Assembly (NCBI GenBank): GCA_030645575.1
Contig: JAUSMJ010000026.1
Span: 18,993 to 82,992 of the forward strand
Length of the DNA: 64,000 nucleotides
Direction: 5' to 3'
DNA from: Caulobacter sp.
GTDB lineage: Bacteria; Pseudomonadota; Alphaproteobacteria; Caulobacterales; Caulobacteraceae
Under the pieces are notes generated by a model that saw only the letters and a list, made by a program, of their open reading frames with translations, had not been told where the DNA came from and searched no databases. This document shows positions 28,962 to 52,487 of the stretch, piece by piece; position 1 is the first letter of the stretch, and the number at the start of each line of letters is the position of its first letter. Made by a program: the position numbers and the translations under genes.

Positions 28962-29432
28962 ATGGCCATAACGCTCGAAATCAACGGCAAGTCCGTCAGC
29001 ATCAAGGCTGCGGACGACACGCCCCTGCTGTGGGTGCTGCGCGACGAACTGGGTCTGACCGGCACGAAATATGGATGCGGCATCGCCCAGTGCGGCGCCT
29101 GCACGGTGCATATCGATGGCCAGCCGACCCGCTCGTGCCAGACGCCGGTCAGCGCCGTGGCCGGCATGAAGGTCACCACCATCGAGGGGCTCGGCGGCCA
29201 CCATCCCGTGCAGCAGGCCTGGGTCGCGGCCGACGTGCCGCAATGCGGCTACTGCCAGTCCGGTCAGATCATGAGCGCCGCCGCCCTGCTGGCGGAAAAG
29301 AAGCATCCGACCGACGCCGACATCGACGCGGCGATGAGCGGCAACATCTGTCGCTGCGGGACCTACCAGCGGATCCGGGCGGCCATCAAGGACGCGGCCG
29401 GCATCGCCACCGCCCTGTCGGCCAAGGCGTGA
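28962..29432 (+). CDS. iorA: Molybdenum hydroxylase small [2Fe-2S] subunit (isoquinoline 1-oxidoreductase alpha type)
   Basis: 156 residues. The N-terminal plant-type [2Fe-2S] domain has [17 protein letters not shown]...TRSC. The C-terminal all-helical [2Fe-2S] domain has [12 protein letters not shown] and [11 protein letters not shown]. These relay electrons from the molybdenum centre in the large subunit. [10 protein letters not shown] at 28962 is the family start; the track's upstream extension is not supported. It is followed 11 bases later by the large subunit. Confidence 0.95.
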
Positions 29433-29443
29433 GGGACATCGCC

Positions 29444-31615
29444 ATGACCGCGCACAGCAAGACCTTCGAACCCTCCCGCCGCGACCTGGTGGTCGGCGCC
29501 AGCCTGGTCGGCGGCGCCCTGCTGGTCGGCTGCTCGCCGGCCGATCTGCTCAGCATCGGCGGCAAGGTCGATGTCGGGGCCTTCGGGCCCTTCGTCAGGA
29601 TCGCCGCCGACGGGGCGGTGACGGTGATTTCCAAACACATCGAATTCGGCCAGGGCAATCACGCCGGCCTGGCGGCCATCGTCGCCGAGGAGCTGGACGC
29701 CGACTGGACCCGCGTCAGCGTCGAACAGGCCCCGGCCAACGCCAAGCTCTATTCCAACGCGGCCATGGGCGCCCAGGGCACGGGCGGCTCGACCGCCATC
29801 GCCAACAGCTGGGACCAGCTGCGCAAGGCCGGCGCCGGGGCCCGGGCGATGTTCGTCCAGGCCGCGGCCGGCAAGTGGAAGGTCCCCGCCGGCGAGCTGA
29901 CCGTCCGCGACAGCGTCGTCAGCCATGCGAAGAGCGGCAGGTCGGTCGGCTTCGGCGAGCTGCTGGCCGACGCGGCCAGGGTCAAGCCGCCCGAAAGCCC
30001 GGTTCTCAAGGATCCGAAGACCTTCACCCTGATCGGCACGGACCGGGTCCGCCGCAAGGACAGCCTGGTCAAGAGCACCGGGACGGCCCGCTACACCCAG
30101 GACGTCCAGGAGCCGGACATGCTGGTGGCGATGGTCGCCCACGCCCCGCGCTTCGGCGCGACGGTGAAGAGCTTCGACGCAACGGCGGCCAGGGCCGTTC
30201 CGGGCGTGTTCGATGTCTACGAGATCCCGACCGGCGTGGCCGTGACGGCCAGCAATACCTGGGCCGCCCGGCAGGGCCGCGAGGCCCTGAAGGTCGAGTG
30301 GGACGAGTCGAAGGCCGAAAAGCGCGGCTCCGACCAGATCATGGCCGAGTTCCGCGCCGCCGGCGCCGGCAAGGGCCCCAAGGATCTCAAGTGGGTACCC
30401 TTCGATTCGCACGGCGACGCCAGCAAGGCCGACGGCGAGGTGTTCGAGGCGACCTACGACTTCCCCTACCTGGCCCACGCGGCGATGGAGCCGATGAACG
30501 CCGTGGCCAGGGTCAAGGGCGCCAGCGTCAGCATGACGTTCGGCTCCCAGGCCCCGACCATCGACCAGCTCAACGCCGCCAAGATCGTCGGGACGTTGCC
30601 CGGCGCGGTGAAGATCGAGACCCTGTTCGCCGGCGGCTCGTTCGGTCGTCGGGCCAACTTCCAGTCGGACTACGCGGCCGAGTGCGTGCACATCGCCAAA
30701 AAGGTCGGCGGCGGCCGGCCGGTGAAGCTGGTCTGGACCCGCGAGGACGACATGCGGGCCGGCTATTTCCGCCCGATCGTGCACCATAACCTGCGCATCT
30801 CGCTCGACAAGGACGGCTATCCGGCCGTCTGGCGCCATCGCGTGGTCACCCAATCCCTGATGAAGGGATCGCCGATTCCCCAGAAGGGCGACCTGGACGC
30901 CACGGCCGTGGAAGGCGCGCTGGGCTCGCCCTACCTGAAGGCCACGCCGATCGTTGATGCCCAGCTGGCCCTGCCCGAGGTCGGCGTGCCGGTGCTGTGG
31001 TGGCGTTCGGTCGGGGCGACCCACACCGCCTTCGTCATGGAGCACACCATCGACCAGCTGGCCCGCAAGGCCGGCAAGGATCCGGTCGAATACCGCAAGG
31101 TGCTCTACGAACGGGCCGGCGCCAAACGACACCTGGCCGCCCTCAACCTCGCCCTCGAAAAGGCCGGCCCCGCCCCGGCCGGGCTGTCGCGCGGCGTGGC
31201 CGTCCACGAGTCCTTCGGCACCGTGGTCGCCGAGATCGCCGACGTCGAGATCGCCGACGGGGCGGAACCGCGCGTGCGCCGGGTGGTCACGGCCGTCGAG
31301 TGCGGCATCGCCATCTCGCCCAATCAGATCGCCGCCCAGATGGAAGGCGGCATCTGCTACGGCCTGTCGGCCGCCCTTTACGGCGAGGTGACGCTGAAGG
31401 ACGGAGTCGTCGAACAGACCAATTTCGACGGCTACCGCGTGCTGCGGATGAACGAGGCGCCGACGGTGGAGACTTACATCGTGCCGTCCGGCGCCGCGCC
31501 CTCGGGCATCGGAGAGCCCGGCACGCCGGTCATCGCCCCGGCCGTGGCCAACGCCCTGCTGGCCGCCGGCAAGCCGCCGACCTACCGGCTGCCGTTCGTG
31601 AAGACCGGTAGCTGA
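29444..31615 (+). CDS. iorB: Molybdenum hydroxylase large subunit (isoquinoline 1-oxidoreductase beta type), Tat-exported
   Basis: 723 residues from the ATG at 29444. The N-terminus PSRRDLVVGASLVGGALLVGC is a Tat leader (RRD) that may also be lipid-modified at Cys. The molybdopterin-binding parts include HIEFGQGNHAGLAAIVAEELD, GAQGTGGSTAIANSWDQLR, GGSFGRRANFQSDYAAE and the active-site glutamate stretch GIGEPGTPVIAPAVANAL. IorB-type enzymes oxidise N-heteroaromatics or aldehydes using MCD (cytosine dinucleotide) cofactor. The mocA gene next door supplies exactly this cofactor form and xdhC aids loading. Confidence 0.93.
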   Translation: MTAHSKTFEPSRRDLVVGASLVGGALLVGCSPADLLSIGGKVDVGAFGPFVRIAADGAVTVISKHIEFGQGNHAGLAAIVAEELDADWTRVSVEQAPANAKLYSNAAMGAQGTGGSTAIANSWDQLRKAGAGARAMFVQAAAGKWKVPAGELTVRDSVVSHAKSGRSVGFGELLADAARVKPPESPVLKDPKTFTLIGTDRVRRKDSLVKSTGTARYTQDVQEPDMLVAMVAHAPRFGATVKSFDATAARAVPGVFDVYEIPTGVAVTASNTWAARQGREALKVEWDESKAEKRGSDQIMAEFRAAGAGKGPKDLKWVPFDSHGDASKADGEVFEATYDFPYLAHAAMEPMNAVARVKGASVSMTFGSQAPTIDQLNAAKIVGTLPGAVKIETLFAGGSFGRRANFQSDYAAECVHIAKKVGGGRPVKLVWTREDDMRAGYFRPIVHHNLRISLDKDGYPAVWRHRVVTQSLMKGSPIPQKGDLDATAVEGALGSPYLKATPIVDAQLALPEVGVPVLWWRSVGATHTAFVMEHTIDQLARKAGKDPVEYRKVLYERAGAKRHLAALNLALEKAGPAPAGLSRGVAVHESFGTVVAEIADVEIADGAEPRVRRVVTAVECGIAISPNQIAAQMEGGICYGLSAALYGEVTLKDGVVEQTNFDGYRVLRMNEAPTVETYIVPSGAAPSGIGEPGTPVIAPAVANALLAAGKPPTYRLPFVKTGS

Positions 31616-31619
31616 CGGG

Positions 31620-31752
31620 GACAGGATTAGCTGTCCCTTGGGACTGCTTATCCTGTCTCTGTCACCGCATCGGGGGCAGGCTATCCAGTCCCAAGGGACA
31701 GGAAAGCCTGCCGTGACGGGACAAGCTGTCCCTTGGGACTGCTTGTCCCGTC
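31620..31752. repeat. Cluster of three REP-like hairpins (TT, AA, TT loop types)
   Basis: Three 38-bp hairpins fill the gap between the convergent iorB and mocA genes: 31620-31657, 31675-31712 and 31715-31752. Each has GTCCC-TT-GGGAC or GTCCC-AA-GGGAC at the tip and 18-base arms. All three have a T.T or A.A mismatch at the sixth pair from the loop, and hairpins 1 and 2 also at the tenth. Orientation alternates forward, reverse, forward, like a BIME. Relatives lie at 52391-52483. Confidence 0.93.
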
Positions 31753-31756
31753 GCTA

Positions 31757-32365
31757 TCACTCATCCACGTCGAACAGCACCCCATCGTCGTCGGTCGGGA
31801 CAAGCGCCAGGCCGTGGGTCATGGCGTTCAGCAGCCAGCCGGCGCCGCGATCGCCGGCCAGGGATCGCAGGGCCGGGAACAGCTCGGCCGAGAACAGCGC
31901 CGGATGCCCGCGCCGGCCATCGCACACGGGCGCCGCGGCCCGGGCGCCAGCTGCGAGAGCCTCCGCCAGCCTGGGCGCGACCTCATGCGGGATCCGCGGC
32001 ATGTCGCCCAGGAAGACGAAGACGCCGGTCGTGTCTGGCGGCAGGCTGGCGATCCCCATGCGCAGGGAGGCGCCCATGCCCTCGGCGTGCCGGGCGTTGT
32101 GCGCCAGATGCAGACGACCGGATTGGCCGGTCCTGTCGGCATAGCGGCTGGCGGCCGCGAGCACGGCCTGGTCCGCGCCCCAGACGACGGTCACCGACCG
32201 CACGGGCGCGGCGAAGGCGGCGGCCAGGGCGGCGTCCAGCAGCAGGCCCTCGCCCCAGGGCGCGGTCAGCTTGCCGCCGCCGAAGCGCGATCCCGCTCCG
32301 GCCGCCAGGACGATCGCTTCGAGCGCTCGATTTGCCTCAGCCCCTGTCGCCACGCTCGTCTCCAC
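31757..32365 (-). CDS. mocA: Molybdenum cofactor cytidylyltransferase (MocA/NTP-transferase family)
   Basis: 202 residues. The nucleotide-binding signature is [16 protein letters not shown]. Other blocks are [36 protein letters not shown] and a C-terminal GVLFDVDE, matching MocA/MobA-like enzymes that attach CMP to molybdopterin. MCD is the cofactor form used by IorB-type hydroxylases, which fits its position between iorAB and the moa operon. It is divergent from moaA with an 17-base gap between starts, so their promoters overlap. Confidence 0.92.
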
Positions 32366-52380: not shown

Positions 52381-52390
52381 GGCGCCGGGA

Positions 52391-52483
52391 GGGCTTTCCT
52401 GTCCCTTGGGACTGGATAGCCCGCCCCGACAACGCTGGTCAGGGACTGGATAAGCAGTCCCAAGGGACAGCTAATTCAGTCCC
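52391..52483. repeat. Two REP-like hairpins (TT then AA loop type)
   Basis: Hairpin 4 (52391-52422): GGGCTTTCCTGTCCC-TT-GGGACTGGATAGCCC. Hairpin 5 (52442-52483): 20-base arms around GTCCC-AA-GGGAC. Same family as 31620-31752, with mismatches again at the sixth and tenth pair from the loop. It sits between the convergent pbpC and carbonic anhydrase genes. Confidence 0.93.
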
Positions 52484-52487
52484 CGCA

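Follow-up and report, generated by a model that had tools for sequence, protein, structure and literature searches.

Among the closest described systems, classical REPs carry a GT[AG]G tag (PMC2817692, PMC6006769), and TnpA-REP of E. coli requires this head in the form GTAG, acts on one strand of the folded REP and binds that strand only, its activity being lost once the mismatches in the stem are converted to pairs (PMC8266576). In the survey of Nunvar 2010 (PMC2817692), qualifying RAYTs were found in gammaproteobacteria only. Among TIR families there are some that occur as dimers and in many copies, and those of S. maltophilia include self-complementary ones (PMC3733652). For genes of subclass 2.1 of the TnpAY1 transposases, no REP-like sequences nearby were reported by Quentin 2018 (PMC6006769).

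The window analysed here, a stretch of 64,000 nucleotides from the draft genome of a Caulobacter sp. (3.20 Mb in 83 contigs), contains five copies of one oriented hairpin, three at 31617-31755 and two at 52385-52484, which all have the centre GTCCC-TT-GGGAC, or its complement, in common. A preliminary description had placed three hairpins with a shared tip in the first array, and these were indeed recovered, with their centres at 31633 (GTCCCTTGGGAC), 31688 (GTCCCAAGGGAC) and 31728 (GTCCCTTGGGAC); two more, centred at 52401 and 52457, make up the five copies of which it spoke. The tip that it gave (RTCCC-TT/AA-GGGAC) stands except for its variable first letter, which is G in all copies examined. 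Hairpin 1 (31617..31660, + strand) has the TT orientation and arm type AGC, is mismatched (T.T) six and ten pairs from the loop, and scores 66.7 bits with our covariance model R1. Hairpin 2 (31672..31715, - strand; 60.1 bits) is inverted, of arm type TCC and mismatched at the same two pairs, and hairpin 3 (31712..31755, + strand; 60.8 bits) is again of TT orientation and arm type AGC, with a mismatch at pair 6 only. Alignment thus agrees with the earlier observation of a mismatch six pairs from the loop in all three hairpins and ten pairs from it in two of the three. In the second array, hairpin 4 (52385..52428, + strand, arm type TCC; 57.9 bits) and hairpin 5 (52441..52484, - strand, arm type AGC; 65.1 bits) are the first and second half of one inverted pair with a spacing of 56 bp. 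Folded as DNA, the first array (171 nt) reaches -56.6 kcal/mol, with a z of -9.9 relative to dinucleotide shuffles, 0 of 200 of which were as good.

Both arrays sit between genes that converge on them, going by the ORF list and heuristic gene calls. Just 5' of hairpin 1 ends an ORF on the + strand (29030..31615; 861 aa as listed, with a start that is probably later) that by inspection looks aldehyde oxidase/xanthine dehydrogenase-like, and on the other side a putative MobA-like nucleotidyltransferase of 202 aa, likewise judged by inspection, is encoded on the - strand (31757..32365). A known RNA family was rejected for the hairpins, as an Rfam search of the window matches only a cobalamin riboswitch elsewhere (RF00174; 42430-42622, - strand; 96.2 bits).

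In the genome as a whole, the exact tip GTCCCTTGGGAC is present in 90 copies (48 forward, 42 reverse), versus 0 for a reversed-pattern control, and model R1 gives ~104 matches among the candidates listed, which is a rough count because a palindrome may match on both strands. When all 90 exact-tip copies are aligned by their centre, the five pairs next to the loop do not vary, having served as the search pattern. Further down the stem, pair 6 is T.T in 84 of the 90 copies and pair 10 in 67, and the mismatch positions are therefore conserved throughout the genome. Pair 15 is paired in only 53/90, while at pairs 7-9, 11-14 and 16-20 most copies are paired and changes often affect both sides. Among 75 distinct copies, stem covariation amounts to 0.350 compared with 0.119 in shuffles (none of 500 reaching the observed value), and pairing collapses as soon as the structure is shifted along the alignment by a single column. 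Copies entered this covariation alignment only if well paired (at least 10 of 12 stem pairs), a choice that raises the percentage paired, whereas the mismatch counts use all 90. Together, the covariation score, the collapse on sliding and the mismatch counts indicate that the stems have covaried while the mismatches were held in place, in line with what had been proposed from the differing arms of the first array. The element that emerges is 44 nt long, with a stem of ~21 pairs and a GGGGAC/GTCCCC foot of which position 7 is a variable pair. Mean column identity between copies is 82%, and because the copies differ from one another, recent movement is not evident.

The copies are also arranged in a regular way. 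Out of 35 pairs of neighbouring copies at most 200 bp apart, 34 are inverted (27 TT-then-AA and 7 AA-then-TT) and one has both copies pointing the same way. A spacing of 56 bp is the most frequent; the suggestion that one oriented element alternates its direction as in BIMEs thereby extends from the window to the genome. The main arm types are AGC (37 copies), TCC (36) and TCA (11), and close pairs almost always mix two of them, same-type pairs (2/33) being rarer than chance (permutation P ~1e-4). For many apparent singletons, model R1 finds a partner with an altered tip (e.g. C32:37632/37688 and C57:3939/3995).

The genome contains three Y1 (PF01797) genes, one of which, on contig C4, lies between two copies of the present hairpins, as would be expected from the earlier suggestion that a Y1/RAYT gene might lie near one copy. 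This gene is on the minus strand (L065:5577-6206; C4:11843-12169) and encodes 209 aa; the hairpins start at -87 and +617 relative to the gene start, the second overlapping the stop codon. The HxH motif, the catalytic Tyr (Tyr119) and the Y---NP motif (class 2) are all intact. A family profile of the protein matches E. coli TnpA-REP (4er8) with an E of 3e-8, and the protein itself matches NCBIfam REP_Tyr_transpos with an E of 3e-19 and 69.3 bits, which is below the curated equivalog cut-off of 80. As regards the HTH-like C-terminal extension of TIRYT / TnpAY1 subclass 2.1 enzymes, a Pfam HTH search gave no match at E up to 10, and the protein does have a C-terminal region, though a short one. 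For the own genome alone, the chance probability of the association between hairpins and transposase is, on a pessimistic estimate, up to ~0.007.

Taking together the number of copies, the fixed mismatches, the covariation, the inverted pairs and the flanked Y1 gene, the hairpins can be classed as a REP/REPIN-like family that has a RAYT. In our judgement they are highly likely to be one of the two components of a mobile system of the REP/RAYT type, the other being the C4 transposase as the probable mobiliser. Each 44-nt element would fold as single-stranded DNA on its GGGGAC/GTCCCC foot, with a variable foot pair 7 and fixed T.T mismatches, which, being A.A on the other strand, would make the two strands distinguishable. 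Two inverted elements ~56 bp apart would form a unit of ~100 bp (a REPIN or BIME). The 209-aa HUH/Y1 transposase would probably recognise, cut and rejoin this unit in single-stranded form, and new copies would arise in this way at other sites, most of them 3' of convergent genes. It is the strand difference between T.T and A.A, combined with the GGGGAC foot as the conserved end-signature of the transposase clade, that leads us to propose that the ~100-bp pair is cut and rejoined as single strands in a strand-specific manner; binding, mismatch-dependent strand recognition, cleavage and mobility are all inferred by analogy with E. coli TnpA-REP.

The foot itself sets the family apart from classical REPs. 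A GT[AG]G tag at the stem foot occurs in 12/90 and 4/90 copies, which is control level (12 and 5), and CGTC in 7/90 and 4/90 (control 6 and 6), so that GTAG, CGTC and CnGA tags, none of them consistently above control, were rejected. In the profile of copies, conservation of a tetranucleotide outside the foot is limited to a weak signal (<0.4 bit), and no unpaired tetranucleotide tag was found in the family at the place where classical RAYTs need one. On the other hand, the TIR signature GGGGWSAS is present in 7 and 20 of 90 copies by strand, versus 0 in controls, and the flanking signature of TIRYT / subclass 2.1, GGGG[AT][CG]A[CG], is found in relaxed form. Of the transposase homologues with both flanks (73), 51 have GGKGAC upstream and GTCMCC downstream; among 241 control windows taken at these loci, 9 do. 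On sequence grounds, it is the GGGGAC foot that appears to tie the family to the TIR-flanked 'TIRYT' branch of transposases. The initial assignment to REPs handled by a RAYT is thus borne out by the Y1 gene flanked by the same hairpins, but the family is not a classical REP, having no GTAG/GTGG or CGTC tag and a foot that points to the TIRYT branch.

The same foot, through its partial fit to GGGGWSAS, lends some weight to a different interpretation, in which the hairpins are MITE-like elements of the TIRYT type, i.e. short TIR dimers in which each hairpin would be a TIR turned self-complementary, mobilised as DNA that needs two ends. Self-complementary TIR families have been described by Di Nocera 2013 (PMC3733652), and in sister species non-palindromic inverted pairs of GGGGACAGCTTACT flank the syntenic transposase, with 59 copies in genome G249. 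We regard the MITE-like interpretation as possible but doubtful: it overlaps with the REP/RAYT explanation, from which it differs chiefly in naming and in the need for both ends, and the palindromic unit, the fixed mismatches and the alternating orientation are REP-like.

The transposases of the own genome, of L068 (a Caulobacter sp. MAG) and of L069 (a Caulobacteraceae MAG) have the same downstream gene, and those of L068 and L069 are flanked by non-palindromic inverted pairs of GGGGACAGCTTAC(T/C), a repeat with 59 matches in the genome of L068, 12 in that of L069 and only 8 in the own genome. In L068, a palindromic REP copy is also present upstream of the orthologous transposase, cut short by the non-palindromic repeat. 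The simplest reading of these three genomes suggests that one inherited transposase locus may have changed the repeat that it amplifies. Separately, at L068 ~2700-2790 and at G000 C4:7243-7290, the 3' arm of a REP is interrupted by a GGGGACAGCTTACT element that comes shortly after the GGGACA of the tip, and both places look as if one repeat had been inserted into the other.

The distribution among relatives is narrow. A 13-mer tip match is present in 12 of 249 genomes of the bacterial family, with many copies in the own genome only, while model R1 has no matches in 54 of 61 sampled genomes of the genus; three related genomes that were found via transposase homologues contain 12, 14 and 31 exact tips. 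The exact tip is nearly confined to the own species and its close kin. In G253, exact tips lie within ~20 bases of contig coordinate 1 in eight contigs (C16, C18, C25, C79, C119, C163, C203 and C204), which points to assembly breaks at the repeats, so that the copy number there is probably underestimated. As inferred from identical contig coordinates, G253 and G248 are one genome, and so are G262 and G249. With the foot-only pattern GGGGACNGG...CCNGTCCC, families with other tips were found in the same genus, in G182 (~50) and G047 (~24), where control counts are small, and in 20 of the 21 listed copies of these two families foot pair 11 is an A.A or T.T mismatch. In G022, G047 and G182, hairpins with the GGGGAC foot enclose transposase genes; such hairpins, with other tips, lie on both sides of the gene in L196, L206 and L208. 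Palindromes sharing the foot (GGGGACAGGCRCATGYGCCTGTCCCC) were also seen in further members of the genus (G091, G116, G191, G194 and G215).

At the intergenic site orthologous to that of the first array, no such hairpin is present in five relatives (G230, G249, G250, G111 and G253), three of which (G230, G249 and G250) have another repeat there, CTCCCCGC...GCGGGGAG. The absence of the array makes an insertion likely, but since the region has diverged and another repeat occupies it in three of the five, no junction can be defined. For the same reasons, a clean empty site with target duplication could not be read in any of the five. In L224, L225 and L228, the intergenic region at the array site contains the unrelated repeats CTCCCCGC...GCGGGGAGGGGG and CAGTCAGGCTCCGCCTGAC.

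The placement of the hairpins could alternatively reflect selection for a role as bidirectional terminators or stabilisers of mRNA 3' ends, with their spread not being due to a transposase. Heuristic gene calls place 33 of 53 hairpin clusters between convergent genes, 16 between tandem genes and just 4 between divergent ones, an excess of convergent sites over the 25% expected (P ~1e-8) that such a role would explain. The copy profile contains no T-tract 3' of the stems, however, for which reason rho-independent terminators were rejected. The tip and the T.T positions are moreover conserved beyond the needs of a terminator, the family is missing from nearly all sampled relatives, and the same hairpins bracket a transposase gene. 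This makes an origin by such selection unlikely, though a 3'-end role may be a secondary use of the hairpins.

Slightly less probable still is that the flanking of the C4 transposase is coincidental, the cognate enzyme having been lost or being another Y1 gene (that of C43 or C51). G230 and G111 do have a few hairpin copies and no Y1 gene, and the C51 gene has its own, multicopy hairpin family: on either side of it lies another kind of GGGGAC-footed hairpin, GGGGACACGTACCGGC...GCCGGAACATGTCCCC (C51:17709-18488), which with 67 approximate matches in the genome, versus 6 for a control, represents a second amplified family. Yet the present hairpins lie on both sides of the C4 gene, and one more occupies the orthologous upstream position in L068, whereas the C43 and C51 genes carry other flanks. 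Finally, that the palindromes result from chance or from the base composition of a GC-rich genome is ruled out for practical purposes by the reversed-pattern control (0 versus 90), by the covariation and by the absence of the family from most of the 249 genomes of the same bacterial family.

The REP/RAYT-type family proposed here can accordingly be set beside what has been described before. Like the GTAG/GTGG REPs and REPINs with their RAYT/TnpA-REP in E. coli, Pseudomonas and Stenotrophomonas (PMC2817692, PMC3116915), it consists of a short imperfect palindrome with a high copy number and inverted pairs, is extragenic and downstream of genes, includes a Y1 gene flanked by the same repeats and has stem mismatches as in E. 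coli REPs; unlike them, it is without the GTRG head and has a longer stem (~21 pairs) and a GGGGAC foot. With the CGTC-tagged REPs of alphaproteobacteria (Di Nocera 2013, PMC3733652) it shares an alphaproteobacterial host and inverted dimers that are often heterodimers, but those have stems of 8-9 bp, loops of 4-5 nt, the CGTC tag and no flanked transposase (PMC3733652). The TIRYT or TIRtron systems (Di Nocera 2013, PMC3733652; TnpAY1 subclass 2.1, Quentin 2018, PMC6006769) resemble it in that transposase homologues are flanked by inverted repeats starting with GGGGAC (consensus GGGGWSAS), whereas the Caulobacter repeat is fully palindromic, has two fixed T.T mismatches and amounts to ~100 copies in one genome. 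Since self-complementary multicopy TIRs were already noted in S. maltophilia, the kind is known; what is added here is a fully palindromic, mismatch-bearing and abundant family of the Caulobacteraceae, together with its transposase and several sister families, no description of which was found in the searchable open literature.

Tentatively, GGGGAC-footed palindromes might be added to GTAG and CGTC as a third superfamily of REPs, which would have arisen repeatedly in Caulobacteraceae from the TIRs of TIRYTs. The enzyme would read the foot and neighbouring mismatches, with the tip diverging, and a fixed-locus transposase would be able to switch the repeat family that it amplifies. Because TIR dimers of the plain kind, palindromic TIRs on the flanks of a transposase and REP-like families in full amplification all occur in one clade with the same foot, the steps of REP origin become directly comparable. 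The absence of GTRG, the tag by which REPs are usually defined, likewise makes the recognition rule (foot plus mismatch) testable in a tractable Caulobacter. If the enzymes found here belong to subclass 2.1/TIRYT, the statement that no REP-like sequences occur near its genes needs revision.
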